NCBI GenBank assembly: GCA_009602725.1
Contig: WELB01000110.1
Location: forward strand, 35,654 to 76,772
Reading direction: 5' to 3'
Length of the DNA stretch: 41,119 nt
Origin: Spirogloea muscicola
Taxonomy: Eukaryota > Streptophyta > Zygnematophyceae > Spirogloeales > Spirogloeaceae
Part shown: positions 4,596 to 33,021 of the stretch, one piece after another
Position numbering within the stretch: the stretch's first letter is position 1
Layout: each line of letters begins with the position of its first letter
Program-made: the position numbers and the translations under genes
The notes under the pieces: model-generated
Database searches by the model: none
The model's input: the letters and a program-made list of their open reading frames with translations, nothing else
Told to the model about the DNA's origin: nothing

Positions 4596-5446
4596 AGAGA
4601 GAAGGGCTCGCCCACTGAGGATAGGGGCTGGAAAAAGCCAGCCCAGAAAAGAATGAACAAAGGAAGAGAAGGGGCCAGGGGAAGTACGAAGAATAACAAG
4701 CACAGAAAAGAAACGAAGCAGCTACGAAGCACTCAGTAACCCCTGCTAAGCAGCCTCAGGTCAGAGAGACTGGGTTCCTGGAAGCGGGTCCCCTGGCCAG
4801 AGCCAGAGGCAGCAGCGAGGGCTCTGCCTGCACGCAAGAGAAAGAAGCTCTTCGCGAAAGCTCTTTCACAAAAAAGGTAGCGGCTGCTGATATTAAAAGA
4901 GCGGCTGTGAAAGCCAGTCAGATGCATACAGGTGTTCATGACGGAGCCACAGGCTAGACAGCCAGGGAGCTCTTAGTAACCCCGTGTCAGCAGTAGGAAG
5001 TCAGATGAGCTGAGGGGAGGAAGAGCAACCCCGCTGCGCAAGCCAGAGGCTGCTGCAAGGGCACGACCAGCGCGGCGATGCAAAGCAAGCGCTTGGGAAC
5101 GCTGTAGCGACATAGACAAACGCATGCGGTAGCAGGACACAAGACCCAAAGGCACCGAGCCACCGGGAAGGGCTGCACCCTGTTCCCGGCGCCGCTGGTC
5201 AGCTTGAGATGCCAGCAGCGAAAGTAACGAGGACCACCGACCCCCGTAACACCCATGGATGTCCATGGCCAGGGGGTAAAAGGTATCACCCGCCGGGTGG
5301 TCCTTGTACTTGTGCAACTTCTTCTGTTCGGCCACCTTCACGGCATAGCCGGTCTCAGAAGTTACGGGGCCCTTCGTCCGGAAGCTGTCGGTTAGGACGA
5401 CGTCCATGAGAAGCCGCTTGCCACCTCCCAGGGGGACGCCGACCAA
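4596..5446 (-). mobile_element. 3' remnants of a probable non-LTR retrotransposon
   Basis: Two adjacent minus-strand remnants end in nearly the same peptide. The frame 5446-4973 carries DVVLTDSFRTKGPV, YAVKVAEQKKLHKYKDHP and FYPLAMDIHGCYG, which resemble the region after the reverse transcriptase in LINE-type ORF2 proteins, and ends SSSDFLLLTRGY-stop. The frame 4939-4733 ends SLSDLRLLSRGY-stop. Below 4733 the same strand runs into a non-coding tail, including the hairpin core at 4626-4643, that recurs at 14451-14620 in the other orientation. No intact reverse transcriptase is present, so this is a 5'-truncated, decayed copy. The LINE assignment rests on pattern memory only; the repeat status is seen directly. 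Confidence 0.55.
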
Positions 5447-5458
5447 AGGGAAGCGATG

Positions 5459-5760
5459 GCTGTGCAGGCCAGCCCAATAAGTGGACAGGCTCCGAAGGGG
5501 CCTGAAGTGCTCATATCAAGAGAAGAAGCACTTCGAAGGAATTGAGCGTGTATTGAGTGATAGAGGGCCTGGGTGGCCAGTACAAAGAAGTGGCTCTCCC
5601 AATGGGGGCAAGGGCTGTGGAAAGCCAGCCCGAAAAGAATTGACAGAGGTCGAAGGGGCCAAACGACGGAGGAAAGAACGATGGAGGGGCCTAAAACGCT
5701 ATGGCAGAACGGGTGGAGGATGGACCACTCAGTAGCTACGAGTGAGGAGCCTCAAAGCCG
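5459..5760 (-). repeat. Dispersed repeat modules with hairpin core
   Basis: Hairpin cores of the GGCTGTG..GCCAGCC type lie at 5459-5475 and 5613-5630. The second is preceded by AGTGGCTCTCCCAATGGGGG and followed by a purine-rich GAAAAGAA..GAAGGGGCC stretch. Almost the same arrangement occurs at 27264-27355. A second shared block, TGTATTGAGTGAtaGAGGGCC, at about 5548 also recurs at 27080. The long plus-strand frames here are just this repeat read through. Confidence 0.65.
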
Positions 5761-5843
5761 ACAGCCTAGCAGCCGGAAAACAATCCCCCAGTACAAAGGC
5801 AAGTACATCGACAGATGTACATCACCTGCTGCTAATGATTCGC

Positions 5844-6071
5844 TCAGTGACCACGAGTTAGCACGTAAAGGTCGCTAGCTGATGCCTGAATACCGGACGG
5901 CAAACGACAAGTCCTTCTGATAAAGGTTGACCAGCTTTCTGGAGCAAAGCAAGAGCCTGAGCTCGCTCCAAATTGGCTAAGGGGGCGCTGTGGCTGTCGA
6001 AGGAGAGCCCAAAAGCGAACAGAGGGTCTAATGGGGGACCCCCAACGTCTGAAGACGCCACCGCCCCGCAA
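5844..6071 (-). repeat. Further decayed copy of the element's C-terminal end
   Basis: The minus frame 6071-5844 ends ASDLYVLTRGH-stop, matching the SDLRLLSRGY-stop end of the copies at 4733, 14469 and 27698. The rest of the frame has FGASSGSCFAPESWSTF and no domain I recognise. Orientation is the same as the 4596-5446 copies, so this may be one nested or tandem cluster. Confidence 0.5.
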
Positions 6072-6110
6072 GGCCGGTGGCCACCACGGATTGCTACTAA
6101 CAAGTTCATT

Positions 6111-6400
6111 CTTTGTCTAGGCTGGCCTCTCGCAGCCACCGCCCTGTCCTGGAATCGTCTTCTCTCTTTTTCTAAGTGATCACAGGTCGACGCTTTTCCT
6201 CCCTCCAGTCACTCCGATCTGCATATGTTGACAAGAAGTCGCTGAGGGTCAATTCGCGGAAGTTATGGAGTCAGTTCATGATAGTTTTGCGCCTTATGGC
6301 CCTTCCGACCTTGTTCACTCCTTGTGGGCTTGGCCTCTCACAGCCTTGGGAGAGCCACTTCTTCTTCTCACAGCCATTGCCTTACATTGGACGAGTAAGG
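6111..6400 (+). repeat. Two plus-oriented hairpin-core modules
   Basis: Cores GGCTGGCCTCTCGCAGCC (6120-6137) and GGGCTTGGCCTCTCACAGCC (6326-6345) are present. The second is followed by TTGGGAGAGCCACTTC, the same tail found after the core at 14730-14747. Their orientation is opposite to the 4596-5760 cluster, so an orientation switch falls between about 5850 and 6110. Confidence 0.6.
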
Positions 6401-6409
6401 CTTGCTCCT

Positions 6410-7230
6410 TGATCACCCGCGTGTGGCATTGCTTGTAAAGCTGGGCTATACGTTAGTGCCGTGTTAGGGGTGAACGAATGCCCAGGACAGGAGTGTCACC
6501 ATCACTCGGTTGGGGCTCAGGCGACGTAGAAGCTTGAGGCTCACGTTGAGGCTGACATTACTAACGTTGCCGGCGACGGAGGCGACGTCGGAGATGACGA
6601 GGCCCCGGGCCTCCCATTCCGCGGGGCCCTCGCCGGCCTGGCTGGCCCGGACCGGTACGCACCGGGCCGAGCCCGGGGATCGAGGGGGCGCTGTCATTGG
6701 CTTCGTTGCCACGTGTATGCGACCCCGTGGTCAGAGATGCGCACGTGCATGGGCAACGTCGGGAGCCGCGCCCCCGCCGACAGCGGAGCGGGGCGGCCGC
6801 CCCCGACGGTCGGGCGGGCCCACCCGGCGGTCGGGCGGCCCGCCATCGGGAGTTCATCGGGCGGGGGTGGGTGCACAGTGTCGGCGGGTGGCGGGAGCCC
6901 GACCATCCGGCGGGGCGAGGTATAACCGGGTAAGGGGGGCTGGGGTGAGTGGTGGGGGCTTGTGTCGGCGGGAGGCGGGGGCCCGACCATCCTCCTGGCG
7001 GGGGATCGTCGGGCGGGGGCCGCCCACCTAACTAGCACACCGGCGGCCCAATCCCCCCGGTGTCAGGCGGCGGGGCGGCCACTGGCGCCACGGGCGCGGG
7101 CCCCCCGCGCCTCCTCCCACCGCCATCGCACGGAGCTCGTCTCCCGGCGCCTCCCCTCAGCTCGTCGGACTCGCTACTGCTGACACGGGGGGCACCGAGG
7201 GCGCCCCGTCTGCCTGGCCATTGCCTCCGC
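6410..7230. other. Very GC-rich non-coding stretch with short internal repeats
   Basis: This stretch is dominated by G/C, with repeated CGGCGGG..GGCGGG..GCCCGACCATCC units (for example 6886-6911 and 6966-6992). Frames are open on both strands only because stop codons are rare in such DNA. At 7156-7191 the plus strand reads SSDSLLLTRG, a partial copy of the retroelement end. I see no gene here. Confidence 0.5.
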
Positions 7231-7239
7231 TGAGCTCGT

Positions 7240-7345
7240 CACGGAAGTGGCTCTCCCAAAAGGGGGCAAGGGCCGTGACCAGCCAAGCCCGGAAGGACTC
7301 GAGCACCCGCTGTGTGCACCTACCTGGCTGGCTTTCTACAGCCTC
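7240..7345. repeat. Repeat modules upstream of the permease gene
   Basis: AAGTGGCTCTCCCAAAAGGG runs into a degenerate minus-type core at 7271-7289, and a plus-type core GGCTGGCTTTCTACAGCC lies at 7326-7343. Both types within 60 bases, 640-720 bases before the proposed permease start, suggest independent insertions. Confidence 0.55.
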
Positions 7346-7987
7346 TTGTGAGATAATCAGCAGCCGCCAGCCCCTCCACCCCCCCCCCCGCCGCCATCGC
7401 TCGCCCAGAAGCACGGAGCTCTCTCCCCTGCAGCAAGACCCACAGCCTCGCCGCCGGCTGAGCCACCCGCCGCCGCAAGAGCGCTGGCCGCCGCCGCCGC
7501 CGCTGCCGCGCCGAAGAGCCTGGCCTGCCTCTGCGGGGCTTCGCCGCCGGCAGCGAGGCTCTCGGGGACGAGGGGTTGCGGCTGCGGCGCCGGCGACGAT
7601 CGGCCGTCTCGGCCGTCTCGTGCGTGGCGTCGGCGGAGCACGCGGGAGCCGTCTGTGCCCGGCTGCGCGAGCGCCACCGCCAGCCCGCCTTCAGCGGCCG
7701 CCGGCGGCGGCGGCGGCGGGCTGCAGGCAGCAGAGGCTCCGCGGCAGGCCCCTCGGGCGACGTGTGGCTGGCCGCAGGCATGCAGCCCGACGAGGACCCA
7801 CTGCAGGTGAAGCAGCACGAGCGCCGTTGTCTATCAGGCTGAGAGCCAGAGATGGGCGCCCACGACCGCACTGCTCGTCGCGGAGGCCCGCAAGAGGAGC
7901 CCTCCGGCACCGTCTGCAGGCTGTCTGGGGCCAAGGCCCCCTCCTCTGTCTTTTGATGGGCCGAGCTTGGCCACTGATCTTGCGGCA

Positions 7988-10900
7988 ATGTCGTGTTGCG
8001 GGGGCGGGCCGCAGTATGAGGACGACACGGACCTTGCAGAAATGATGACTCCGCCGGTGAGCCTGCCTGGCCCAGCCAGCAGCTTGTGATGGCTGTCACT
8101 GTTGTGGCAGACTGGCCTGCCTGAGCTGGTAGTAGGTCCTCAGGGCATCAAAATGCCTCAGAGCTCTTCCAAACGTTGTCGCCTACAAAGACGGCTGCTG
8201 GACGAGAAATGGAGGCTTTATGCCAAGTGGAGATTCGATGGGGGATCTGGCTGAGCCTTGGACGCGGAGGAGTCGAACGAGGAGGAAGATGGGCTTCGCT
8301 TTGTGGTGTTTAGAAGAGCGCCCATAGGCAGGGAGGGCAAATGGTGGTTTCTGGGGCGGCACGAAGCGGAGTTCCCAGTCGGCAGATGTTGTGCCCCGGA
8401 TAGGCTCGAAAGCCCGCGAACACAGTGCCAGGCAGGCTGCTGACGTGCACGCCCTGTGGCCTGGCTGTGTTCCTGTAGAATGGACGTGCTGGCTCAGGGC
8501 TGTCGTCGCTGGCAGTCAGCCCCAAGGTACTGCCGCATAGAGCAAACGGGGCCTTCTTTGCTGGTCAACCATATTTGAGATGATGATTCAACGCAAAAGG
8601 CGACACTGTTGCTGCATGCAAGCTAGACAGTAAGACAGTGCTGGACGAGGATGTTCACGGGAAGCCAGCAGTCCTTTCTGCACTACAGGCTGAGTAGGAA
8701 TGCAGATGCAGAGGCGCAACTCAGCAATATGTAATCTGTGCTCGTCATTCCCTGGTTGCTTCCCTGGCAGGCCGATCAGAAATCGCCCTACTCGGATGAC
8801 AAGGTGCGCCTGATTCCAGGTGCCTTGTGCAATCAGACGCCCATCACGATCGTACGAGAGGCTGCTGCTTTCGGGTGGCCGCACAGAGCAGGCTTTTGGA
8901 TCTGCTCATGCAGGGAGTTGCTGGATGAGAGCCATGCAAGGGCGAGAGGCAGCGTTCTGTGACAGCGGCAAGCTCACAACAGACTCGTGAACATGATTAA
9001 GTCTTGGCAGAGCTGATGGCTGGTCTTTCCTACCTGTGCTGCTGCTGGCTGCAGGATGACAGGGCTTGGTCTCAGCTCTCGACGCCCCCGCCCGTTTTCG
9101 AGTTGCAGGTGAGGTCCGCAGCTTGCGCCAGCTTCAATGGTCACATCTGGAACACAAGCCCGTTGAAGTAACTCTCACTTTCATGGTACGTAAGGCGTCT
9201 TGTCACAAAGAGGAGGAGCTTCTATAAGCTCACCCTGTCCCGGACGTGCGCATGTCAGAATTATGATGGCGCAGACCTGCCTAAGAGGGCCATTGTGCAC
9301 TTTCCAGACCACTCAGCATTAAGCCTGCAAGGCATCAAGCCACCGGTAAGTCATGGCCTCAAACAGTCAGCAGATCTACCCACGGACTTACTAGAACGTC
9401 ATCTTGACTGACTGAGACGGTACTAAGTGGACAAGCTGTACCTCCACTTGAAGCTGTGCATCTCATCTCATGACAGCTGAACATGACAGCAGAGGCCTGG
9501 TCAGCTGCTTGTAGTGACGGTGTCTTGGATGGTGGACAGATCCAATCGACTGCTGGTTATAGCTACACCCACGGCTCAGGGAGCCTGCCGCCGAGCTACA
9601 CATTGGACCCTGGAACAGATGCTAGCGAGCAGAAGCTGGACCCTTCAGAGCGTCGCCTGCGACAACTTGGATACAAGCAGGAGCTGCGGCGGTCGTTGGT
9701 AGCTGCCTTCCCTGCATTGTTGCTGCTGTTGCCAATGCCAATACTACTCTGCGTGCCCAAGCTAATCGATTCTTAATGTCATCAAGGTGCTGGATGTAAG
9801 AAATCTACAGTCTGCATGCATCCGCTCTTCTTCGATTAGCTGTATGGGCAGATGACATGAACGAGGACGGCATTGGGCTTCCAACAATCTCAGGTGGTGT
9901 GATTGGCCTGGGTTGTACACAGAATTTCTTGGAGATATTGTCAGTTTCAATGGCGGCATGCAATCCCTACATCACAGTAATTCCATTCTACCAAATTGCG
10001 CTGAGCTATGGAGGGCCACAAAACGTGGTATGGCCGTGGTGGCCAACGGCTGCCTGCGCTTTGTGTGCAGCGCTGGTCTTGTCAGAGATCTGTTCGTCTT
10101 TCCCTGTAAGAGCTCGTGCTTCCCCAGTCTTTCAGCATGTCTCTCTCGAAGTGTAAATTAGGGTCCTTGATAACAGGCATGGCACTTGCGCACAGTACGT
10201 GCTAAGCACAGCACAATGTAGTAGTATGTAGCAATGTAGCAAGTAAGATTCCAGTCTGTATCCTCAAAGAATGTGAACAACTGCAAGTAGCATGCATCTT
10301 CTGCTCCAACTTGGCTAAGCGCGCCAAAGAAAAGTGGAGGACTCCTCTTTCACGGATTTGACATCTCTCAGTATTGTGGAATAGAAATCTTAGCACTCTT
10401 CTTCATGCCTCTGCTTTGGGAGTGATGGCAGACAACTGGTTCGCTCTACTTCTGGGCGGCCAGCATGGCTCCTGCAAAGTGGAAGGCCATTACATCGTGG
10501 GTGACGGCCTGGCTAGAAGTAGTGGCGCTCATTGTGACCAGCGCCAGTGTCGCATACCCAGGTACTGCCATGCCCCTGGAGGTCATTTTGCAGCTCTCCT
10601 GGTAGTAAGAACATGGGCACTACTTATAGCACTTCCTCTGGAGCTGACTGGCAAGTGCGCATTGTTCGTCGCTGAGCACCTTGGCTATCTCATGTCTGCA
10701 GCTACGCAGATCATCCAGCAGATAATTCTGCTGGCAAGCGGTGGCATGACGGGTGGGGGTTACTATCTGCCCAAGGGCCTCTTCTTCCTGGTTTATGCAG
10801 CGCTGGAATTTTCCTGGGCCATCCACGCCTCATTTCCCCTCAAGAGTGTCGCCAAATTTCTCACCTTCACCTTCGTCTACTTCAACGTTGTCTTCCTATC

Positions 10901-13040: not shown

Positions 13041-14215
13041 AGCAAGCGCCGGTCGCTGCCGGCGCTCTGCATTCATGAGCCCTAGGCAGGCCCCCTAGGT
13101 GCTCGCGGTCCATGTGCCTACAGCTGAGGCGCCCCCTTGGGGCCATTGGAGCAGGAGTCTCAAGACCCTGCCTCCTTGCATCTGCGAGGCCAGTGGTACA
13201 CTGACGAGGACAGGTACAGCGGCCTACGTGTTGAGACGCTCCTGCAATAGCAGAGCCCTGGCAGCATCTCAGTAGCGGCGCTTACTGAGGCCGTTGTTGT
13301 GTAGAGTGTGTACGAGTTATGTGTGGCTATTTATTGGGGCTGCAATCCCAGGCACCAGCTTTATGCTGGCTGCACGACGCCAGGCCCCAACGCTCTACTT
13401 GAGCTCCCATAAGGTGTCCACTTCTCCTGCACTGTCGCCTGCAAAAACTGTGGGCCAAGCCTATACAGTCTTTCAGTGATCGCGCCCCAGCATGCTCAAC
13501 GAGCTCCAATGGCCAGGTCGAGTGAGTTCCCATGCTCCAGTATTGTGCTCCATGCCAGTAAGAGACATTGTGCTCCATGCCAGTGTGAGACGAACTGTCA
13601 AAGGCATCACCTTACCTACAGTAGCTCGTTGTAACAGCGGCCTGTCCAAGTGGAGCTTATATTGCTCATGGCCAAAGGAGGACTTGGTTCCGGCTTCCAC
13701 ATCCCACTCGACCCATGTCTTTGGGAAGTGCGCCCAGCATGCTACTTTGGAGGACTAAGCTACCCCCTGCAAAGCTCACGTCTGTTGATGCTTCATTGAG
13801 GCCACAGGCATGTCGGTCTCTCGCACTACACTGGCAAGCCTCTTGGCGCCTGGCTTAGTCAAGCATCGCTGACTGCCTCGCAGCAGGCGGGGCGGTTGTG
13901 AGACAGGACAAGGTCGCAGCACAGGCGGCAGGGAAGGCACTCAATGGATGCCGCCACAGCTAACAGTGTCATCCATCTGTGGCAATGAAGTGGCAACCAG
14001 TACGAGCTGACAGTGGCACTTGTTCTTGAACGCCGTCATCGTCCGTTGCTCTGCATTCGTCCCTCTGCATTGGGCCCTCCGTCGAGACCCTGCTTCTGAC
14101 GCACAGAATCTCAGGCTTGTCCCTTCTGGCCCTTGTGGTTGAAAGTAGCAGCTCTTCCCAAGGGGACGAGGACTGATTGAATTTTAGCCAATGACCAGGC
14201 TAAACAAGCTCCAAA
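13041..14215. other. Downstream region of the permease, no gene seen
   Basis: This contains the presumed permease 3' UTR and unassigned DNA. Frames are short and low in coding character. A 25-base unit (ATTGTGCTCCATGCCAGT..) is directly duplicated at 13542-13566 and 13567-13591 with two differences. Confidence 0.5.
13542..13591 (+). repeat. 25-base tandem duplication
   Basis: Two head-to-tail copies, 23 of 25 bases identical, lie in the region downstream of the permease. This is probably recent slippage or duplication, with no evidence of function. Confidence 0.8.
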
Positions 14216-14834
14216 GATGCCGGGAAGCGTAAAGAATGTGGCTGCAGCCCAGGGGCCCCACCTCCTGATTGATCGAAGGCATGCCGTGGCTTGCAGTTAC
14301 CCCGGAGCTCCAGGCCCCTTCGGACCTTTTGTCCACTCTTTTCTGGCTAGCTTTCCACAGCCCTCGTCCCCTTTGGATGACTGCTGCTCAAGCAGGAACC
14401 ACTGGCCAGGGGTCTCGCCACCAGGAGACCAGTTTCTCCGACCTGCGGCTGCTTAGCAGGGGTTACTGAGTATTTCGTAGCTGCTTGACTCCATGTGTGC
14501 TAGCTTTAGCGCTTTCCCTGGCACCACCTGAGTCTACTTGTGTGCTTCAGCGCTTTGTCTGGCCCCTCGCACTGCGCTCGTCCTTCGTCTGGGCTGGCCA
14601 ATCACAGCCATCGGCCTCGAACTGGAAGAGTTCTTCCCTCTTTCTTTCTCGTGCTTAGTCTCGTGCTTAACTGCGTATTTCAAGCGCCTTTCGGCCTTCG
14701 GATCTTCGACGCGTTGTCGATTCTCGTCGGGCTGGCTTTTTACAGCCATAGCCCCCATTGGGAGAGCCACTTCCTTTCCCAGCCCCTACCTGGACGGGAG
14801 AGCCCTTCCTTTCCGCTCTCCCGTGGGTACTAAT
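14216..14834 (+). mobile_element. Plus-strand copy of the retroelement 3' end and tail
   Basis: The frame ending at 14469 reads TSFSDLRLLSRGY-stop, nearly identical in peptide and DNA to the minus-strand copy at 4733-4775. The upstream GGCCAGGGGTCTCGCC also matches the reverse complement of 4780-4800. Downstream, CTTAGCAGGGGTTACTGAGT..TTCGTAGCTGCTT repeats the tail below 4755. Cores lie at 14345-14362, 14592-14609 and 14730-14747. A second peptide end, PSFPLSRGY-stop, occurs at 14808-14834 after CATTGGGAGAGCCACTTCC. So at least two element ends are stacked here in the same direction. Confidence 0.6.
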
Positions 14835-15773: not shown

Positions 15774-15774
<1 letters not shown>

Positions 15775-15829
<55 letters not shown>

Positions 15830-17480: not shown

Positions 17481-19919
17481 TCAGTGCGAGAGGACCTCCT
17501 TGAGCTCGCCGCTCCTTTGCATCTCCATAACAATGTCACAGCCGCCAACCAGCTCGCCGCCGTGGTAGAGCTGGGGGTATGTCGGCCAGTCCGAGAGCTT
17601 CTTCAGCCCCTGGCGGACCTCGTCATTCGTTAGGATGTCGAAGTAGCCAAATTCAACGCCTGCCTCGCGCAAAGCATTGACGACCTGCATGTTTGCAACG
17701 TGAGGTGCTGCGACATCAATCAACGAGCCAGTGCAGGTCACCAGCATCCAAAGCCATGACTTCTCAGGTGGAGTTGCGGAGCTCTGCAGAGTGGATGTGC
17801 TGGCAAGCTTGGTTAGCTCAAGACCTGATCCAGCAGCAGCATAACTACCACCATAGCTACCAGCATAGCATAGCTAAACTGCGGTGAGCCGCAATATACT
17901 AGAGGTCAGACCTACATGCGCTGGTAAGCTATTGTTTCCAGACTTATCATGCATTACTGCATCGACAACGTATATCACAGCATATTATTCCTGATGCCTT
18001 GACAGACAATAGCACCCCTTAGAGCTAAGGGCTGACCTTTGAGCTGAAGCCGCAGCGGGGGTCGTTGGGCGTGCCCTTCATGAAAAGCATGGTCTGCTGG
18101 CTGACGAGCAGCCGCCTGCACCGGTCCTCGGCGCTCTTAGCAGGGGCCACGGGTTCCTCCATACTGCCAGCACCACCGTTGGCTGTACCTGAGGCCTTAT
18201 CGCCTCGAAGCAGCGCCGCAAGCTCGCCACTGCTGTGCATCTCAAGCACAATATCGGAGCCGCCGACCAGCTCGCCGCGGCAGTAGAGCTGCGGGTATGT
18301 TGGCCAATCAGAGAACTCCTTGAGGCCTGCGCGCACGTTGCTGTCTAACAGGATGTCGAAAGTTTCAAATGGCACACCCTCCTTGTCTAGTGCTGCAACC
18401 ACCTTGGCGCACAAAGAGCACACACAGCAGGCAGGGTTGAGCATCTTCGAATTTTCCTCGCTGCTCGTGTTGGCCTTAAAGTGTGGCACACAGCTGACGG
18501 CTAACAATGACACCAAGTCAGTCCTTGACGCAATGGAACTGACGATGACTTGATAATCTGTTAGCAACTTTCATGTCCATCTTGTGTATCAGACTGAACA
18601 ACCACTTTCTCAAGCTGCTTCAAAGCGTCGACAACGCATGCTCGACCAATCAACAGATGCTTGCAGAATACCTTGGAGCTGAACCCGCAGCGGGGCTCCT
18701 CCCGAGTGCCCTTCATGAAGAGCATCACAGGGCTCGAATTTACCAAGGCCGTCAGCCGCCGACGCAGCGTGTCGCTTAGGCCTGCATACATTCACTTGAT
18801 CAAAGCCAACGCTCACCTAAGGCACGGCTTCGACAAGTACAAGTCCGCCTGCTCTTCTGGACATTGTGCCCAATGTTGCTGGTCAAAGATTGTCCACACA
18901 GTTGGGCCCCAAACGAGCCGCAAATATATTGTTTCTATGCGAACGATAGTCCACCATTTAGGTCTTCTTTTGTATACATCTTGTAAGAAGAGGATGAGGT
19001 GAGGTGACAATCGATTGTATCAAAATCTTGCCGGGTTGAGGGGGTTTACCTCTAGAGTCGTTTTCGTCAGCACCGGCTCTGGAGCTGCTAGCCACGGCCT
19101 CGATCACTTCCGGGCCGGCAGCTGTGCCGGCCACAGCGGGCTGCCGCAGCGTGCCTGCAGGCGGGTTTTGGGCATCGGCGATGTGCGTCGCGACCTTGTG
19201 CGCCAGCTCGGGGGGGCTCGCGCCCTCCAGGCTATCGATGACAGCGCCGTTCTGGAGATCGAGCGCAGGTGCCGGCACACTGATGGGTCTGCTTCGCCTA
19301 CAGAGTCCTCACGGTGTAGCCGAAGCACAGTGGGGACTGTGCTTCGACTAACAGTCCCGGAACACAGTGTGGGCACTCCACCGAGTGCCCATAAGCAGCA
19401 AGTGCAGCGATATGGCGGCAAAAGCCGCGCTCGACGCACCAGGGGAGCTCTGCAGGAGTTGAACCCGCACCTTGTAGAAGAGGAAGAAGGGCACCGCCGC
19501 CACGCCGCACTGCTCCGACACCTCCGGCAGCTCCTCGGCCTCCACCTGCGAGAGCCGTCGTCGCCGGCAGGCAGCCGAGCCGAGCCGCTCAGCTGCGCCT
19601 GGCGGGCGCCTCGGCCTCCATTTGCGGCGCGACGAGGAGGCCATCACACTGTCATGTTACTCAAAAATTTCTCCATATGACTCATCCACAATAAAGTAAA
19701 TATTTGCAACATGACTGCGACGGCGCAGGGGCTGACCCGGAGGAAGGCGGCGGCGGGGGTCTCAGCAGCGAGCGCCGCGAAGACGCTGTCCATGTGGGCG
19801 CACGGCTCGCACCAGCGCGCCCAGAAGTGCACCGCCGCACCCGCCGCGCCCGCGCCCGCCACCGCCGCCTCGTACTCCGCCTTGGAAGCCACATCCACCA
19901 CCGCGCCGCTGAGAGCCAT
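17481..19919 (-). CDS. GRX3: Multidomain monothiol glutaredoxin, Trx-Grx-Grx (GRX3/PICOT, GRXS17 type)
   Basis: Exons on the minus strand: 19919-19737, 19545-19471, 19251-19050, 18781-18672, 18402-18037, 17684-17481, giving 379 residues with all phases consistent. Residues 1-110 form a thioredoxin-like domain with WCEPC at 36-40. An Ala-rich linker follows, then two monothiol Grx domains. Each has [12 protein letters not shown] (CGFS about 185-188 and 307-310), [10 protein letters not shown] and a GELVGG(S/C)DI glutathione-binding stretch. CGFS Grx bind a bridging [2Fe-2S] cluster and act in iron sensing and cytosolic iron-sulfur delivery. The two-Grx layout equals human GLRX3, whereas land-plant GRXS17 usually has three. 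The start Met is chosen because [20 protein letters not shown] matches the usual N-terminus; upstream frame residues have no ATG. Introns 1 and 5 start GTCAGC, an uncommon donor. Confidence 0.93.
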
Positions 19920-20214: not shown

Positions 20215-20530
20215 GCGTCTCGTCTTCCTTTGTTGCGCTTCGCCCCTTCGAGCTTTGCTCATTTCTTCTCCTGGGCTGGCTATCACAACCTTCGCCCTCT
20301 TCTGGAGGAATTTTCTCATCTTCGCAATGGCTGACACCATCCCCAAATCCTAAACCCCATACTTCAAACCCTGCACCGATCTGCTCAACAGGGGATCGTG
20401 AGCACCCCGTGGCCACTTCAATCGCTGTGTGCTTTTGCGCTTTTCTAGCCCCTTAGAATTTTGTTCTGGGCTGGCCATTCACAGCCGTCGCCCTCTACTG
20501 GAAGAGTCTTTCTTCTCCTGCACAGGGGCC
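20215..20530 (+). repeat. Two plus-oriented hairpin-core modules between GRX and EH1 genes
   Basis: Cores GGCTGGCTATCACAACC (20274-20290) and GGCTGGCCATTCACAGCC (20469-20486) are each preceded by GCGCTT..GCCCCTT..TTCTTCTCCTGG-like sequence and followed by a TCGCCCTCTnCTGGA block. The same order is seen at 14550-14630. Confidence 0.65.
20341..20373 (-). repeat. Degenerate CCCTAAA-like tract
   Basis: CCCCAAATCCTAAACCCC..AAACCCTG reads as imperfect TTTAGGG units on the minus strand, about 420 bases before the glutaredoxin start. It may be a telo-box-like promoter element or a telomeric relic. It is short, so it is only suggestive. Confidence 0.45.
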
Positions 20531-24000: not shown

Positions 24001-26969
24001 ACAGGACAAGTACAGAGTCACGTGACAAGTCTGAAAAAGAGAAAGAATGCAAACTCATGCAAAACTCACAATCTCTTGCATTTTGTCTCTGTAGAACTCA
24101 ATCTTCTGCTTCGAGTCCATCAATTCCTTCTCCAGCTCGTAGGCCTGCACTTGCACACAGGCCCAGGTCAGTGTACAACGCAAGACCCCTTGTGCCAGTG
24201 CAAGAGCGGAGGTTAAAGAGCGCCTGCACAAAGCACGACCTATGTAGCATCACAAGATGCTGCCCCGCGGGGTGCATGAGTAGCTCTCACGTTCTTCTCT
24301 GCGTCCGCGGCCTCTCGCTGCTTCTTTTTGAGAGCATCTGCCTCATCCGGCTGAAGCTGGTTGACAAGGCGATCATCAAGCTCTGGCGCCTGAGCCTTGA
24401 ATACTTGGGGCCCAACTTCTTGCGGTCCCACATTTGGCACCTGCTGCGGCAGCTGCCCAATAGGTGCTGTCTGGAATGCGGCAGGTTCAGGTGGTCCTGG
24501 CACTGGCGGGGCCAGTAAAGCTGGCCCTCCCAGCATACCTGGTACAAGCAGGACCGGAATGATCATGACCAGGCTGCCTCATGCCGATGCTGACGAAGCT
24601 GGCACCCATCTAAGCGGAAATGTGAGAGTGCCAAATGCTCCAGGTCCTTGTCAAGTGGACATTCGTCTTACCAGCACCAAATTGCCTACACGAACTTCTC
24701 TTATCTCAGTGGCGGAGACGGGCTTCACATACCTGGTGTGTTCTGCCAGCTGGGCACGTTGTAACCAGCTGCGTTCTGCATGAGGGCTTGCTGAGCCTGG
24801 GCAATGCGGGCAGCTGCAATCGCAGCGCGAGGATCTTGGGCTGGTTGGTCAAAGTGGATGCCCAGCGGCAGGACTGAGGGGATTGGGCGCCCTTCCCGGA
24901 ATCGCTCCATCAGGTAGAGGGCCGTGCAAAACTCCCGTAAAGAAAGCATGCTGTCAGCATCTTCATCGGCGAGCTCCCACACCTGCTTCAGTACCCCTAC
25001 ATAAGAAATCCGGAAGCTTTGGTTGAGCATGCCGTCACTGAGTCTTGGCATGAAAATAATATTGGCATTGCTGGTGAATCTCAACTATAAAATATTGATG
25101 TTGCCGAGATGTACTGATAATGGCACAGTGTGGTGAGTGCGTGGAACACTCACCGCGAGGAAGCCCCCAGCTCAGAAACAATTCCCTGGCCTGCTCTCCA
25201 CTGATCTTGCCATCGCGGTCCGTGTCAACATCAGCAAAGACGCGGGTGTACCTCTGGGCCTCCACCACAGTCATCTGTGGCCAAGCAGCACCTGGAGTTG
25301 CTGCTGTTGGCGGCTGAGCCCCGGGAGAGAAGCTCTGCTGCTGGGGAGGCTGCGCTCGGGTTGGAGGAAGCAGCACCGGCTGCACGTTCGCCTGCGGCCT
25401 GGACAGGTAGCCCGCATCCTGCTGATGACCTGGGCCGTTGACGGCTGGCATGGAAGGAGGTGCTGCACCAAAGCCTTGCCCCGAGGATGAGGAGACGGGC
25501 TGAGTGGGCAAGGGTGCTGGGGACATTGAAGACGGTGGTTGAGGCAATGCCAGAGGCCTGCCTGAGGCCGCGTTCGCCGCAAACGCCTCGCCAGCAAATG
25601 ATGCCGTGGGCGATGCCAGCGACAGTGGCTGAGATGTTCCCTGCCAAGAGACCTTAAGAGGATGGTGAGCAAGGCTGAGACATGCTTAGCCTAATACCGT
25701 GATTTGCCACTGATGATTCACGCATCTGACATGGGTTGGAGTTGGCATGCCTCTTCTCTCAGTAGCAAGAAAGACGACATTGAGGCTTAGCCTTTCCCAA
25801 AAGCTATTAGCACCTGTAACCCTCCCACTGCAATCACTAGTGTCCATGTAGAAGTCCTCCTGAGGTATATATCATGCCTTCGGACGCACACGCAGCAGTG
25901 CAACGTTCACCTGCATGGAGCTGCCATAGCTCCCAGTGTTGCTTGTGGCAGGCACCGCCGGCGGCTGAGCCCTGAAGCCAGAGCCTGAGAAGTCGGCTGA
26001 AAACATTGCAGGCTGCTGCTCCTGCTGGGGAGGCGACGGTGACGGCGGTGCCGCCTTGAAGACGCCGCTGGACCCAAAGCCGGAGCTTGCGCTAGGAGCA
26101 TCGAAAGCTGCTGGCGCCTGCTGAACTGCGGGGCTTGGGAAAGACGAAAATTGACTCTGGGGCTGGCCATAGCTTCCCTGCTGCCCCCCCGCTAGACTGG
26201 CCGCCGAGGCCGGGACGCCGGCTCCAGGATACTGCCGGCTGCCGTAAGCACTGCCGGAGCTCGGAGCAGGCGGCGCCGACGAGATACGCGGCGGGGGAAT
26301 TTGCGCAGCGGCGGGGCCGGTGAGCGCGGCGCGGGCGACGTCCGCCGTGAGCTCCCTCCCCGACTGGGCGACGGTCACGAGCTTGAGCGCGTTGTGGAAC
26401 TCGGGCCGGTTGAGGAAGCCCCGCTGGGCCTGGTCTGAGAACTGCCAAATCTGCACGAGGGAGGCCTGCCTCAGCTACTTACTGAGCTTCTCGGGCTCTC
26501 CGCGCCACAGGTGGCCCAAGTCTCGGGGACGGTAAGAGACATATGATGCGATCTGACATGTGGCTCAGGCCTATCAGAGTGTAGCCGGCGCGCCCCATCA
26601 GAGGACCTAAATGAAGGGCAGGCCGGCATTATCGGCTGCCGCCAGGAGCAGGCTGCCGCGACGGGGGGCGAGGAGGTAGGTGCAGAGCCAGACGACGACG
26701 AGAAGGAGCAGCTCCCGGCCATGGACGAAGCTCAAGGCCGAGGGACGTCAAGCCCGTGGCAAGCGCACGGAAACTATGGGGCCGGCGGCGGCGCCTAAGC
26801 CCAGCTGCATCGCAAGCGAGCTTACCTTTGCCAGCGTGACCTGCGGGAGGCCGGCGCCCTCGAAGAACCCGACGGCCTCTGCGCCGCTGATGCGGCCGTC
26901 GCCGTCGGCGTCGGCGAGGCGGAAGTACTGGTCGAACACATGGAGCGGCGGCGGCAGCGGGCCGGCCAT
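21097..26969 (-). CDS. EH1: EH1/Pan1-like EH-domain protein, TPLATE complex subunit, 14 exons
   Basis: Exons (minus): 26969-26826, 26450-25911, 25640-25154, 24996-24733, 24538-24291, 24144-24070, 23946-23875, 23593-23495, 23327-23256, 23090-22973, 22778-22710, 22478-22280, 21848-21695, 21402-21097; 948 residues, all phases consistent. EH domain 1 (about 7-95) has the loop DADGDGRISGAEAVGFF; EH domain 2 (about 350-435) has DVDTDRDGKISG and VWELADEDADSMLSLREF. Between them is a Pro/Ser/Gln-rich linker. Residues about 520-705 are a charged coiled coil (KKKQREAADAEKN, ELEKELMDSKQKIEFYRDK), followed by GWQAGMQ..WDEDWDKFVDEGF, a stretch I associate with plant EH1/EH2, and an acidic, FG-containing tail ending GLDAWSSFE. 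EH domains bind NPF peptides and lipids; in plants this subunit acts at the plasma membrane in clathrin-mediated endocytosis and actin-linked autophagy. Two introns (donors at 22972 and 21694) start with GC. Confidence 0.92.
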
Positions 26970-27021: not shown

Positions 27022-27022
27022 N
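27022..27022. other. Single unresolved base upstream of EH1/Pan1
   Basis: The N lies 53 bases before the chosen ATG in a GC-rich leader. The frame is open through it, but the chosen Met begins the family-typical N-terminus, so the protein model is unaffected. Confidence 0.8.
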
Positions 27023-27074
27023 CGCCGCCGCAGCCTCGGCTGCCGCGGCAGCGGGAATGGCGTCGCGGGCGACA

Positions 27075-27725
27075 ATGGAGTGTGTATTGAGTGACGGAGG
27101 GCCCGAGTGGCCAATCACATTGACAGAAATCCATTACCTGCTGACCAGTTTCAGTAACCATGAGTCAGCAGCACACAAAGGTCGCGAGGTGGGCTGGGGT
27201 TACCGGGACGGCTGCCCCGAGGACGTTGTCGGGGACATACCGACGGCACGGGCGCCTGAGGAAGTGGCACTCCCAATGGGGGCAAGCGCTGTGAAAAGCC
27301 AGCCCGAAAAAGAATGGACGAAGGTTCGAAGGGGCCGAATGATGGAGGGGCCTAAGAAAAAAGCGCTAAGCAGCCACGAAGGGGCCTGAAGATGCGATGT
27401 CAAGGCCTGAGGAGAGAAGCGGCGGGTAGGCCGCCGCCGATATCAGACAGATAGCTCTTCAATGTACGGCAATGGCTGTGAGAAAGTGGCTCTCTGTGAG
27501 AGGCCAGCCCAATGGAATGGACACGGTCGACAGCGCTGCCGGCCCAGACGCCGGGATTCGGAACGCAGAGCCTATGTCCAGAGACGAAGACCTTCTCCGG
27601 TAGAGGGCGATGGCTGTGCTTGGCCCGCCCAGAAAGAGAATGCACAAAGTACGAAGGGGCCAAGAAAGCTCAAGTGACTCAAGTGGCCCCTGGGTGCTCA
27701 ATACCCCCTAGTGAGCAGCCGCAGT
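27075..27725 (-). repeat. Cluster of minus-oriented element copies
   Basis: TGTATTGAGTGAcgGAGGGCC (27080) matches 5548. Cores lie at 27288-27303, 27488-27509 and 27612-27629. The minus strand at 27730-27698 reads S-E-L-R-L-L-T-R-G-Y-stop, a fifth copy of the retroelement C-terminus, with the tail below it. The cluster begins about 105 bases upstream of the EH1/Pan1 ATG, so it probably supplies part of that promoter. Confidence 0.65.
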
Positions 27726-28546
27726 TCAGAGAGACAAGAAGGAAGAGAAGCCAGGCGGGCGGTGCACACGGAATGGAAGGCCTAGATGAGCCGATGCTCA
27801 TGACAATGGAGGGATACGAGTGGTCTCCAGCACATAGCTCCGTGGAAGATTAGCTGGAATGAGGATTCAAACTATGACGCACAGCTCTTGTTGCGCAAGC
27901 AGCAGGAAGTCAGCAATCCAAAGTGGCAGTGCCCTGCAAGCCCCCGTTGCTTGTACGTGCTCTGGCAAGATAGATAGATCTATTCATGCAAGTACTGCAA
28001 TAGCAGAGCGGCGAGCTGTCCTGTTTGTCAGAGGACGGGCATTGATGCTCAATAGGATCAAGGGTGATTCTGCCAATCTGCACAAGCAAGCTCGTATCAC
28101 GAAGCTGCCAAGCAGTCAAGTGAGGACAAAGGTGGCTGGTAAACAGAAGATGAGCCTACTAGGCAGGACCTAGCTGCGGCATGTCTGAGCAAGTGCAAGA
28201 TCCACCAATATAAGAGGTGCAGTAGAGTGGTGCTCGTGCATGGGGGGGGGTTTGGTTTTATGTATGAATGGACACAGACGAATGCACTCTAAGGTGCATT
28301 CAAAAGGTGAGTGCATTTTTAATAGGATCGCACACTCCAGCTCTACAACAAGAATGCTGGTCAACATTGGGCAGATAAAATAGACCAAGCTACAGTTGCA
28401 GTTGCAGCTGGTACAGCAAGTAAGACGTGGGTTGCGTGCTGAATATTCGGGTCTCCTGCTGAATCTCTCAAAGCCAAGTCGAGCACGAAGAAGCCAACAG
28501 ATACCTCTTTGCTTCCAGGTCAGGCAAGGCATCATCGGACTTAAAA
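27726..28546. other. Spacer and presumed 3' UTR of the MIF-like gene
   Basis: I see no gene with domain support. The minus-strand half next to 28547 must contain the MIF-like 3' UTR. A G10 run lies near 28243. Confidence 0.45.
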
Positions 28547-29913
28547 TCAGAATGTGGATCCATTCCAACCAAAATCACTCCGCTGCAAAATGACAAACCA
28601 ACAAATTGCTGTCAGGAAAGCTCTCTAGTACCTGTTGAGGAGGCTGCAGCAAAAAGTCCAAGCACTCAATTGGCATTATGCTGACTTTCTTTGGCATACT
28701 TTATTGAGCATTTAATCTGTCCGCCTGATATGTATTCCTGACTTGGCCTTTGAAGCTGTCACAGCAGTCGTGCAAACGCATAGTCGTGTAGGCTTGGAAT
28801 GAGTCTGTCCCAATTGACTTGCAACCACTAACAAGATACACCTGCCTTAACTTTACGTCTACTGTGTCATTATGCAAGTCAATTCAGGGCCTTTGATCTG
28901 CCAGCGCAGGACCCAACGTAGGACCTCTAGGAGGACTTACCATCCCTATGGAGCTTGTTGGGCTAACCGCTACTCCTTGACCGACCGGCGCATCTGTATT
29001 GTACTTATGCTCTACTGATGTATGGCATGCAAGCATCTGCTCTCTGCAGCGCTCGCCTCCAGTCCCTGTGGTGCAGAGGTTTCTCTTATTGGCTCATTGC
29101 ACAATCGACTTTGTGCTCAAGTCTGTACATTTTGACAACCCAAGTATCGCCAATTCTGCATGGCATGGCAGGGTGGCAGCTCGTGGCTCTACTGTCATTC
29201 TGCTGCAACACTGAGTAACTGTACACTTGAAGCTCACCTTCACATCGTAGAACTTGATGTACACCCGGTTTGGTGGCACGCTCAGCTTGCTCTGGAGGAT
29301 ATCGCAAATAGCTGCACTCAATTTCTTGTTCGTTTCTGGATCCAGCCCACCAATAGACACAACCTCTCCATAGGCTGTAGGCTCCTCACTGCCTCCAAAG
29401 GACATGGGAACTCCTGCCTTGAGCGACACCATGACATACTGCAATGTACATGGCACGCGGGCCATCCTTCAAGTAAGTTACACAGGTCAGAACAGAGGGC
29501 TGCAGCGAATCTCTTGGGAGGCAGCAGAAAACAGATCAATGCTTCTCAGCAGCTACATTTCTCCATGCAACTTGTACTGTAGGCATTGTAGGCACAAGCG
29601 TCTAAAAAAGGATACTGTTGGAACAGCCCAATGCATGATGTTGTTGGAGCAGACGCATAACTCTAGCAGTTGCATGGTCTTGACTATGGAATGTCGAGCA
29701 CATGTGAGAATCAGAACCACTGAAGCGTGTCAGACTTTTGCATGCAGTGTACTCCAAGTGTGCCTTACGGTGTGATAAGAGGAGTAAATTCAGAGGACTT
29801 ACTGACTCCGGCTTGCCGATGATCTTGGACACGGCCTTGCTACCATCCTTCAGTATGTCCGATGTCACGACGCCGTCTGCTGGAACGTTGGTCTGGATGT
29901 TGAGGGTAGGCAT
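28547..29913 (-). CDS. MDL: MIF/MDL-like tautomerase-superfamily protein
   Basis: Three minus-strand exons, 29913-29803, 29438-29238 and 28582-28547, encode exactly 115 residues, the usual MIF length. The protein starts MPTLNIQTNVP, so the catalytic Pro becomes residue 1 after Met removal. It then shows AVSKIIGKPES, VPMSFGGSEEPTAYGEV (the most conserved MIF block), SIGGLDPETNKKLSAAI and the C-terminal RSDFGWNGSTF. Members form trimers with a tautomerase pocket at the subunit interface. Plant and algal MIF/MDL proteins are cytosolic or peroxisomal with poorly defined roles. The 11-residue last exon was located by phase and by the conserved C-terminus. I see no C-terminal SKL-type peroxisome signal. 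The gene is head-to-head with EMC2; the start codons are 584 bases apart. Confidence 0.95.
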
Positions 29914-30497
29914 GGCGGGCCGCTGCACTTCAGACGACGTGACACCTCGGCTTTCCTGTGGAACGCAACTCGACACAGCAGAGCTTCAAGCACAGCACAG
30001 TACAAGAGCTGCCTCCAGCCTAACCTCAGGCCTGGCCAGCGCGGACAGCCATGGTCCGCAACTGGAGGTAAGTACCTCGAACAGTGGCCTCGGAGACGAC
30101 CCGCGGTCGGCCTCGTCTCGGCGTGGCTCTGGCAAGCCGACGACGCCGCGAAGAAGCGGCGGCGAAGTAGCGGGACGGGGGGGCCCTGGTCCTGGCGACG
30201 ACCTGGTGCGCCGCGGGTGGAGAGATGGGACGCACAGTCTAGACGGAAAAGTAAGGCTTTGAGTGTGGCTTTGAGAAGCCAGCCCCAGTTGGTAGAATCT
30301 GACAATGGCGCGCTTACTTTCTCGACGATAGGAATAAATAGCACGAGACGTGATTTGAGGGCTGAGCTCGTTTAGGCACGGACGACATGCTGGATCACAT
30401 CACTTTGTGTTTACTTATTTACCTTCGGGACGTACTCCCACTCGTCCACCTCCCACGCACTCCGGCGCGCGCGGCGGCGGCGGCGGCGGCGGCGGCG
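29914..30497. promoter_or_regulatory. Shared divergent promoter region, MIF-like / EMC2
   Basis: The 584 bases between the start codons must carry both 5' UTRs and promoters. A minus-type hairpin core, GGCTTTGAGAAGCCAGCC, lies at 30267-30284 in the middle, and a CGG microsatellite (30471-30497) directly abuts the EMC2 ATG. No TATA box is obvious. Bidirectional action is inferred from geometry only. Confidence 0.55.
30471..30497 (+). repeat. (CGG)n tract directly before the EMC2 ATG
   Basis: About nine GGC/CGG triplets end at the base before the start codon, so they lie in the 5' leader. The frame is open through the tract, so an Ala- or Gly-rich extension cannot be excluded, but there is no better upstream ATG. 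Confidence 0.75.
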
Positions 30498-33021
30498 ATG
30501 GTGACCGCGCCGGAGAGCGCGGAGGTGGAGGCGCTGGAGATGCAGCTGGAGGCGCTGAGCGTGGCCGGCGGCGGCGAGAGATTCGCCGACCGCGTGGCCT
30601 ACCTGCAGCTGCTGCGCAAGCACCGCCTGCGGCGGCCCGCCACCGCCGCCGCGCACGGCCTCGAGCTGCTCAAGGACCGCCGCAGCCGCGCCAGGCTCGG
30701 CAGCGAGGGTGAGGACACAAGACTGCGGCTGCTGGTATTGAAAGAGCGGCTGTAATCGCCAGCCAGGTGCATACAGACGGTGCTCATGACCATACCAGCG
30801 GAGAGCCAGAGAAGGAGGTCCCGCCGATCGCTCCGTCAACTCGCTGCATCAGTTGCGCGGTTGCCTCCACTGATCCGCTTCCTGGCCCTCACGGTGCCTG
30901 CCGGCTGCCGCTTCGCAGTGTGGACGGTCTACGAGCAGGTGGCCGTTGCCGCCATGGACTGCAACTCTCCGGCCGTCGCCGATGTCAGCTCCGTGGCCCG
31001 CCCCTCTCTGGCTGCAGCCTGGCCTCCACCCTCGCCCCCCTCGATAGCACCTCACGGGGCACTCAGATGGCTGGGAGCCTCAGATCTGGAGAATGGACGC
31101 GTCAATCGCCTAGATTGGCGGCCGATGGAGGCCCGCAGACATGCTTCAGTTGGGAGTGGAGGGGGCTTGCTTCCGAGCTTGAAGTCGAGAGCCAAAAGGA
31201 TCTGCGACAATGTGACGCTGCAGTGATAGTTGCTGAGCACAGTCTTGGAGCCGTGCCGCTTCTGACCAGCTTCCTGCTGCTGTGGTTGATCCCAGAAATG
31301 TGTCGAAGCACTCATGCAGCGATTTCCAGACAGCCTTCGTGTCTGTGAGGCTTGCCAAGACCCCTACTTGTTCTTATGTCTTTCTTTAAGGCATCAGCTG
31401 CTACTGATCTCCATCTTTTGATCCGAGGGCGTCTGAGGTCGCAAAACCCTTCCAGTGGCATTGCTAGTCTAAAGCGTGACCTGCCTTGCTACGGCAGCAC
31501 GGTTGAAGGGCATGTTGCTTGAGGCCAAAGGGTGGTACGATCAAGCGGACAACGTATACTCGAGCTTGTTGGTTGAGCATCCGACAGAAGCTGTGTGTAG
31601 GCCCGACCATTCTGTACCACTTTGACAGGCTGAGACAGCATTGACGAAGTACTTGCACAAGCCTTGTTGGAGCATGCGTAGCATCGCTTTGCATTCTCCT
31701 CCTCCTCCTACACCCTAAGGAACTTCTTGTGACGTATGCTCCTTGGTTCATTCCGTCGCTGTTGACACGTGTTCAACTGCTGAAAAGGTATTACACAAGA
31801 GGAGGGTGGCCATGTTGAAGGCTAAGGGCGACCTTGTTGGAGCTGTGGACGCTCTCAAAGAGTATCTGGACATGTAATTCTCTCCACTGTACTCTTTGTG
31901 ATAGTCCTTGCGACTTCCTTCTCGATCCGGCCGAAATCACCTTTCTTAAGAGGATTCAGGATTAGTAGATTGATCGGCAGAGAACTCGCTAAAGGGTTGC
32001 TTGAGCATTTTATGATGTCATCACTGCACACCTCTCGTTTGCCATCAGATTCATGGCCGACCACGATGCATGGAGGGAGCTGGCAGACATCTACATCAGC
32101 TTGCAGATGTGTGGACGTCCATCTCTTATACTGTGGTTTTGTCCTCCTTTTGCTTGCTCCAGTGCTTGCATACCTGAGCTCTACCTCCAAGAAGCAGCAA
32201 TAATCTCGTGTGCGGCAACTTGCTATCCATGTCAGAGCTCATACTCCACATAAATGCTAAGAGTGTGCTTCTTGGACGTGTTGGCAGGCTGAAGCAAGCG
32301 GCTTTCTGTTACGAGGAACTGCTACTCTCTCAACCAACAAACTGCCTTTACACCCTCACATATGCAGAGGTAATTGTTACAAGCTTCAATGTACTTCCAG
32401 GATTGACTCCTACTCAACGACAGACTTGGTATAGCTTTGGCAAATCTCCAGGTAATATCTCAGTTCCTCTTTCTTGTGATGGCCAGATATTATACACCAT
32501 TGGCGGTCCTGACAATGTGCGAAGTGCGCGCAAGTACTTCGCTGCAGCAGCAGAATACAGTGGTGGAAAGAACATCCGTGCACTCTATGGCATCTGCTTG
32601 GTGAGCATCAACAACAGTTTGAAAGGATTAGTAAAGTGTTTGCATGCAATCGTAGAGTCTGCACCTCCGACAATGCCTTGCAGTTTACATGAGTGCCCAT
32701 CGAATCAATATTAGTAGAAGGCCAACATGGTCAGCGTCCACTAGGATTTAACACATTTATTGGGTTGCCTGCTAGAAGGGTCGCTATATGGGTTGCTTGC
32801 CCGACATTAGTCAACATTGGACGTGCCATTCATGTGCGCAGTGCACTGCAGCATCTAGTCCAACCCCCAGTGGGCGAGGCCGCTCAGAGAAGGACACTTC
32901 GTCAATCTCAGAGGTTGCCTCATTAGTACTGCAAAAGGAGTACGTCCGCCGATGCCCAACAAAGGCCAAGCTTGTAAATAGTGCGCTTCAGGCGTGGAAG
33001 ATCCCTCTCAAAAGCAGTTGA
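30498..33021 (+). CDS. EMC2: ER membrane protein complex subunit 2 (EMC2, TPR protein), 9 exons
   Basis: Exons: 30498-30708, 30919-30983, 31296-31344, 31498-31592, 31788-31873, 32049-32108, 32288-32369, 32487-32600, 32842-33021. All phases fit and give 313 residues, close to the usual ~300. Family landmarks: VWTVYEQVAVAAMDC, FPDSLRVSRLKGMLLEAKG, KRRVAMLKAKGDLVGAVDAL, MADHDAWRELADIYISL, AFCYEELLLSQPTN and LYTIGGPDNVRSARKYFAAA, that is, a run of TPR-like helices. EMC2 is the cytosolic scaffold of the EMC, which inserts tail-anchored and multipass proteins into the ER membrane. The last exon carries a Ser-rich insertion, SSPTPSGRGRSEKDTSS, before the terminal helix. Intron 1 begins with a fragment of the window's dispersed repeat, and intron 2 starts GTCAGC. 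The first 70 residues are Arg/Ala-rich and less conserved. Confidence 0.95.
30715..30800 (-). repeat. Repeat fragment at the start of EMC2 intron 1
   Basis: GCGGCTGCTGGTATTGAAAG, the core GGCTGTAATCGCCAGCC (30748-30764) and GTGCATACAGACGGTGCTCATGA match 4880-4945 in order and spacing. The minus strand reads CMHLAGDYSRSFNTSSRSL here and CMHLTGFHSRSFNISSRYL there. The insertion starts within about ten bases of the donor. Confidence 0.75.

Follow-up and report, generated by a model that had tools for sequence, protein, structure and literature searches.

Several groups of long interspersed nuclear elements (LINEs) are known in which a structured 3' end takes part in retrotransposition. For R2 of Bombyx mori a 43-nt two-stem core of the 3' untranslated region (3'UTR) suffices (PMC10499050), and the stringent-type LINEs ZfL2-1 and ZfL2-2 require their own 3' stem-loops to move, their proteins binding both stem and loop (PMC4176376). 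LINEs with a restriction-like endonuclease (RLE) carry a signature of a CCHC knuckle followed by the endonuclease, with the catalytic lysine being the first K of KX2KY (PMC5678591); CRE, R2, R4 and NeSL elements mostly insert at specific targets, and many members of HERO are non-specific (PMC4640811). Zepp-like elements belong to the L1 type, and those of Coccomyxa are grouped in about one cluster on each chromosome, probably centromeric (PMC3446292, PMC8226300). Here we describe a dispersed hairpin motif in a 41,119-nt stretch of the Spirogloea muscicola genome (contig WELB01000110.1, positions 35,654 to 76,772; the whole stretch is called the window below). With a probability of about 0.9, we take this hairpin to belong to the 3' untranslated tails of RLE-type LINEs that form a superfamily of retrotransposons without long terminal repeats (non-LTR retrotransposons).

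Like R2 and other RLE-type LINEs (CRE, R4, NeSL, HERO, Utopia), the elements have a single long frame with a putative zinc finger and a reverse transcriptase (RT), a candidate C-terminal knuckle plus an RLE-like motif with KX2KY, and a short 3'UTR with a hairpin and no poly(A). They differ from that group in the spacing of the candidate zinc knuckle, and similarity to R2 is seen in the RT and zinc finger only. Unlike R2, the copies are dispersed and nested (about 20,000 exact-core matches) rather than placed in one target gene. An R2-clade insertion in the 28S rRNA gene was rejected, as the copies are spread over many contigs and those of the window stand among protein genes. The putative stem-loop in the 3' tail resembles that of the stringent-type LINEs UnaL2, ZfL2-1 and ZfL2-2. 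In contrast to ZfL2-1 and ZfL2-2, whose tail-binding region sits between endonuclease and RT (PMC4176376), the endonuclease is here RLE-like and lies behind the RT. By analogy with the ZfL2 and R2 tails, the tail would be best understood as an RNA end to which a LINE protein binds. Zepp and Zepp-like LINEs of green algae also form clusters of nested copies (PMC3446292), but the clusters here are small, number several in the one 41-kb window, and stand beside genes. The element is of a known kind (a putative RLE-type LINE) with an unusually clear and conserved tail; no description of it stood among the papers listed by a literature search outside Repbase and most subscription journals.

Abundance of the hairpin and shape of its copies

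The initial annotation of the window had listed 18 or more dispersed copies of an 18-mer core with GGCTG/CAGCC arms, and all 18 places were inspected as sequence. On both window strands the 18-mer occurs 6, 10 and 16 times with at most 2, 3 and 4 mismatches, against means of 0.04, 0.34 and 3.06 in 50 dinucleotide shuffles. A covariance model, R1, was made with 78 tails, taken from the window and from fetched loci (106 nhmmer matches minus 20 mosaic or incomplete ones, 5 duplicates and 3 rows without the 5' arm). R1 recovers 17 of the 18 places at E<=1, 16 of these at E<=1.3e-4, although the 12 window tails among the 78 match by construction and their scores are not independent. The place at 7326 matches weakly (E=0.056), whereas 30267 gives no match at E<=1 and its membership is uncertain; an extra weak match stands at 4496 (E=0.47).

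In the 153.1-Mb genome (471 contigs) the exact core GGCTGGCNNNNCACAGCC with a free loop has 5152+5197 = 10,349 matches on the two strands, and the same pattern written backwards has 4+3 = 7. The repeat seen in the initial annotation is real. The B/B2 form of the core, GGCTGGCNNNNCCAGCC, has 4631+4632 strand matches (control 1+3) and the D form, GGCTGGCNNNCACAGCC, 527+528 (control 0+0). The three cores sum to 20,667 strand matches, some of them counted on both strands; GGCTGGCNNNNCCAGCC can be its own complement, and 11 places were counted twice among 100 rows listed. When R1 was run on 12 preset 6-kb genome regions, 14 matches at E<=0.1 were found, confined to four of the regions, which gives a density of about 1 tail per 10 kb and strand. 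The hairpin motif is abundant and clustered in the genome.

A 91-nt stretch of a family A tail (27255-27345) gave at least 45 matches in a genome search, with 40 of 333 candidates scored; of the 45 matches, 40 are long and 87-100% identical. In twenty loci matching this stretch the similarity breaks off sharply on one side (GAAGTGG...) and declines gradually on the other, which on the opposite strand reads as a fixed 3' end with ragged 5' ends. The last 18 nt of family A occur exactly 701+721 times in the genome and 0 times in the control. Sixty family A 3' ends (L048-L107; the first 61 of 100 listed places minus one at a contig end) were then compared, each with 400 nt before and 120 nt after the end. 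The 3' end is CACTTC followed by a short pyrimidine-rich stretch, and an A5 run stands within 20 nt behind it in only 1 of the 60 copies, indicating that there is no poly(A). Similarity among the copies stops within the fetched 5' stretch in 57 of 60, at varied points (two at a run of N). A truncation run with loose scoring was discarded, as its alignments ran through unrelated shared modules.

The flanks of the copies also share short words, as seen in a check for target-site duplications of the kind that the initial annotation had suggested. A word of at least 7 nt is shared at 20 of 55 usable junctions (shuffled partners, mean 4.0, maximum 12), one of at least 9 nt at 8 (mean 0.7, maximum 3) and one of at least 12 nt at 3 (0.06 expected). 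Taken together, the fixed 3' end, scattered 5' ends and duplications are the marks predicted for target-primed reverse transcription. Note that 9 of the 60 5' junctions fall 18-27 nt from the 3' end (8 if L100, an internal deletion, is left out), whereas the next eight 10-nt bins together hold 24, a mean of 3.0. This excess is suggestive only of an enzyme pause at the hairpin. A second cluster of 5' junctions (7 of 60) stands at 91-99 nt from the 3' end, near the word GTAGCTGCT.

Many copies are very short: in 34 of the 60 the similarity to the tail reaches no further than 110 nt from the 3' end, and in 9 no further than 27 nt. This would be expected if the hairpin belonged to a small non-autonomous element, the second possibility raised in the initial annotation. 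Such a short interspersed nuclear element (SINE) or miniature inverted-repeat transposable element (MITE) would spread alone or via LINEs. However, the 5' ends of the 60 copies are scattered and give no fixed second end, no shared non-LINE 5' end was noticed among them, and longer copies continue into LINE coding sequence. In the window, a tRNA scan for a SINE head found no tRNA gene and an Rfam scan gave 0 matches at the gathering score. We therefore dropped the non-autonomous element as highly improbable. A MITE or DNA transposon with terminal inverted repeats was rejected because one end only is fixed.

LINE reading frames and their protein class

Tail types A, B, B2, C/E and D all carry the hairpin. 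Among these hairpin-bearing families, D and B2 were read as complete frames, whereas A, B and E were read at the ends of their frames. We surveyed frame ends of the type [LFV][LFT][ST]RxY plus stop in the window and in loci L001-L035 (L021 and L027 were omitted as overlaps). A hairpin lies 53-122 nt past the stop codon, on the element's strand, in 28 of 41 LINE-frame ends, including all five in the window, although one of the 28 pairs, in L010, is a probable chance match in coding sequence. The window frame 4973-5515 (minus strand) is the C-terminus of a LINE protein. A search with it gave at least 151 matches at E<=0.001, with 150 out of 18,418 candidates scored. The best of the other matches are 96-98% identical, and several of these have open frames of 1340-1488 aa; far longer frames among them (e.g. 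13,193 aa) are probably runs of N. Three other LINE C-termini used as queries gave at least 150 matches each. From stop to stop, the open frames measure 1434, 1379 and 1488 aa in family D, 1393 and 1410 aa in family B2 and 1137 aa in family H, and a family A locus is interrupted by a run of N. A Pfam scan of the window's LINE fragment by itself gave no match. On this sequence evidence the hairpin is the 3' tail of LINE retrotransposons. The structured 3' tail of a transposable element suggested in the initial annotation is thereby borne out by the fixed 3' end, the 5' truncation, the target-site duplications and the upstream LINE frame, and the flanking modules that it had seen recurring are the remainder of the one 3' tail.

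Two family D proteins matched RVT_1 in Pfam (E 4.6e-17 and 3.9e-17). This was the sole match at E<=0.1 in a scan of these two proteins, which thus gave no apurinic-type endonuclease. When a profile of D, B2 and H was compared with PDB, R2 was the best match (E 2.6e-12), with chains named LINE-1 ORF2 at E 2.9e-6, and the R2 alignment spans the RT and, weakly, the zinc finger. An N-terminal CX2C..H..C is invariant in the three families, with a weak alignment to the zinc finger of R2 (3.1 to 8.9 bits). The C-terminus has the motifs CxC...HMLRC, H.LLRD, an invariant D, DVV and K..Y. A candidate knuckle motif, CxC...H...C, is at the right place in D, B2 and H, and D986, D1001, K1029 and Y1033 are invariant in them. 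The RLE-like motif has VD, AD or LD in place of PD. Because the KX2KY of the RLE LINE signature stands there in D and B2, with KX2HY in H, the elements are classed as putative RLE-type LINEs, assigned by motif and not by fold. Over about 1,100 aa, protein identity is 51% between D and B2 and 44% between D and H. Zepp, which is L1-type, was rejected as the identity of these elements, given the RLE-like motif and the apurinic-type endonuclease missing from the matches of the two D proteins.

Conservation and pairing of the hairpin

As the initial annotation had observed, the arms mostly persist while loop and flanks drift: the mean top-letter frequency across types A-E is 0.97-0.98 in the arms, 0.80 in the loop, and 0.72 and 0.63 in the flanks. 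The arms are near-invariant across types although the D and B2 proteins are only 51% identical. In B and B2 the pairing grows to 7 and 8 pairs through the letters that face G7 and C8, and the folding energies stand out from those of shuffles (z -2.3 for B and -3.7 for B2). The minimum free energy (MFE) fold of both draws a second helix across the hairpin, TTGTCCAT with ATGGGCGA; in B2/B tails (L033:5177-5243, L035:5221-5287) the segment ahead of the hairpin, TTGTCCAT / TTGTTCAT, could pair with ATGGGCGA on its far side. By eye, mainly one side of this outer stem varies between B and B2, and from the modelled folds we offer the stem as a suggestion for these two families. The related family H lacks the GGCTG hairpin and has another at a similar place in its tail: GGCC-UUU-GGCC in L034 (minus strand, tail 337-405) and, by eye, GGCC-AUCU-GGCC in L024 at 3366.

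Several results weigh against reading the hairpin as the tail of a superfamily of RLE-type LINEs. The remaining 13 of the 41 frame ends have no such hairpin within 170 nt of the stop; they include H and F-like families, truncated loci and rearranged copies. The sixty 3' ends represent one family at first-listed places on three contigs and are not a random draw. The knuckle spacing is CX1CX12HX3C in all three families, whereas the published form is CX2-3CX7-8HX4C, and the RLE is recognised from motifs alone, with no Pfam domain for it in the two D proteins and no PDB match beyond RT and zinc finger. As for pairing, genome-wide mutants in both arms are complementary in 11 of 36 cases (12.5 expected, p 0.76) and in a second set in 23 of 60 (21.8 expected, p 0.41), and RNAalifold gives no pair on the tail alignment. 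There is no clear folding excess in A (z -0.6), A' (-0.8), D (+0.75), E (-0.1) or H (-0.9), and the MFE folds of the window's E tail and of the A' copy differ from the simple hairpin.

The 78-tail alignment has no excess of the compensatory arm changes that the initial annotation had proposed to look for. Its sole two-sided pair is the outermost, where U-G, the pair seen in family D, fills 11 of 12 cells and so amounts to a single change. Arms do mutate without compensation in the copies, an outcome that the initial annotation had named as one that would count against it. Most inserted LINE copies are dead on arrival, so these uncompensated mutations weigh little, and the active elements seem to keep the arms unchanged. 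The arms might also be conserved as sequence, for instance as a processing signal or as a binding site on DNA or RNA, with the pairing incidental. Frozen arms with uncompensated mutations would fit this, as would the four of six hairpin-bearing tails that folded with no clear excess, but the two blocks that are conserved are the reverse complement of each other, the pairing is lengthened to 7 and 8 pairs in B and B2, and family H, which lacks this hairpin, has its GGCC hairpin in the tail. We consider incidental pairing rather unlikely, and a role of the hairpin in recognition plausible. Of the earlier idea of a hairpin kept for recognition, the conservation of the arms as sequence across families is borne out, and compensation in mutated arms is not.

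Nesting and orientation of the tails

The tails and LINE pieces of the window are as follows (ORF, open reading frame; E-values are those of R1 unless a percentage of identity precedes them).

4599..4735, minus strand: family B LINE remnant from the stop at 4733-4735 (LLSRGY, then stop) to the 3' end; hairpin 4626, E 3.5e-16
4874..5461, minus strand: family D LINE, 5'-truncated, last ~160 codons plus 3'UTR; ORF stop 4973-4975, hairpin 4903, R1 match
5430..5494, minus strand: C/E-type tail adjoining the start of the truncated D copy; hairpin 5459, E 6e-6
5585..5789, minus strand: family A LINE remnant plus 3' tail, 86% to L032; ORF stop 5729-5731, hairpin 5613, E 2e-17
5787..5972, minus strand: family H LINE fragment beside the A copy, same orientation; 74%, E 7e-30
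6097..6164, plus strand: E-type tail; hairpin 6120, E 1e-7
6300..6364, plus strand: A-like tail; hairpin 6326, E 6.6e-6
7150..7229, plus strand: family D LINE fragment near the ORF end; 79%, E 7e-12
7243..7307, minus strand: A-like tail; hairpin 7271, E 6.6e-6
7326..7367, plus strand: decayed D-type tail with D-like end AATCAGCAGCCGC; hairpin 7326, E 0.056
14313..14389, plus strand: A-like tail, with a LINE ORF end after it (LLSRGY, stop ending 14469); hairpin 14345, E 9e-10
14560..14641, plus strand: E-type tail; hairpin 14592, E 2e-8
14704..14774, plus strand: A-type tail; hairpin 14730, E 1e-13
20241..20323, plus strand: E-type tail; hairpin 20274, E 2e-10
20430..20513, plus strand: E-type tail; hairpin 20469, E 3e-12
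27258..27339, minus strand: family A tail; hairpin 27288, E 1.6e-17
27447..27530, minus strand: C/E-type tail; hairpin 27488, E 5e-5
27583..27700, minus strand: E-type tail plus LINE ORF stop 27698-27700 (LLTRGY, then stop); hairpin 27612, E 8e-11
30267..30284, minus strand: degenerate site of uncertain membership; no R1 match at E<=1
30720..30791, minus strand: family D tail; hairpin 30748, E 1.3e-4

By eye, the coding part of the family B remnant extends upward to about 4830. Over 5445-4874 the truncated family D copy matches L029, a copy with an intact frame, at 99% identity. Exons beside the tail clusters belong to a MIF-family gene (29094-29468, minus strand), an EMC2-like gene (32178-32714, plus strand) and an EH-domain gene (25872-26474, minus strand).

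The initial annotation had also stated that copies cluster by orientation. In the window (17 tails) orientation agrees in 9 of 11 neighbour pairs with starts within 600 bases, and in the 12 sampled regions the figure is 5 of 8, so that the statement holds as a tendency. In the 60 family A loci R1 detects 112 tails: a tail in the same orientation ends no more than 20 nt before the 5' junction in 14 of 55 cases and one in the opposite orientation in 2 of 55, where about 0.1 such neighbours would be expected if places were independent (at the tail density given above). Downstream neighbours are mixed (11 in the same and 9 in the opposite orientation). We read the clusters as probable repeated insertion at old tails, the clustering by orientation arising because copies nest behind or inside older tails of the same orientation.

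Head-to-tail neighbours could also be made in one insertion event by an RT that jumps between RNA templates, as R2 does at low levels (PMC10499050), and at 9 junctions the copies are indeed separated by 3 nt or less. In L104, however, an A copy splits an older B2 tail whose remainder lies downstream, with a 7-nt shared word, and in L058, where the new copy abuts an older tail, the flanks share a 10-nt word that repeats tail sequence of the older copy. A copy can land at an antisense tail too, as in L084 with an 11-nt shared word. Template jumping is thus an improbable source of these neighbours as a whole, and possibly accounts for part of the adjacent pairs.

Other features of the window lie apart from the tails. 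A run of 55 A at 15775-15829, in a G+C-rich stretch near an N, is possibly an assembly artefact. Two 116-nt copies that are 78% identical (17503-17618 and 18221-18336) lie in a glutaredoxin gene region (PF00462), and a second repeat pair stands at 18035 and 18670 (84% identical); both pairs are repeated glutaredoxin domains. Degenerate TTTAGGG-like tandem repeats stand inside the contig at 2996-3033 and 15005-15059, which may hint at a plant or algal host. There is also a tandem pair of a 25-nt unit with 92% matches at 13542-13591.

For repeated insertion at old tails we propose the following course. The element's protein would bind the RNA of the tail by its hairpin, perhaps together with the segments on either side that can pair across it in B and B2, and would nick a pyrimidine-rich target, and target-primed reverse transcription would start at the CTTC/CTTT end of the tail. 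New copies would insert at old tails because the ends of these resemble the preferred target, giving rise to the same-orientation clusters. The enzyme may often break off early, in some cases directly ahead of the hairpin, and the fragments left would be hardly longer than the tail. A bolder proposal, which we hold tentatively and think somewhat doubtful, is that this RLE-type LINE superfamily gave up a fixed target gene and prefers its own pyrimidine-ended tails as landing sites. The hairpin would then both select the RNA and block the RT, insertions of about 20-30 nt would accumulate, and the arms would be an invariant recognition code common to diverged families.

On the reading of the hairpin as a LINE tail, the least explained repeat of the window becomes a set of oriented LINE insertions, and the 20,667 exact-core strand matches would be a large natural data set on how a LINE protein selects its own RNA. 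Diverged families in one genome have one hairpin and H at least has another, which makes them suited to a comparison of tail recognition in RLE-type LINEs, and the frequent landing at old tails would be a case of self-targeting. The interest of these elements lies in a frozen hairpin in diverged families together with probable insertion at their own old tails.

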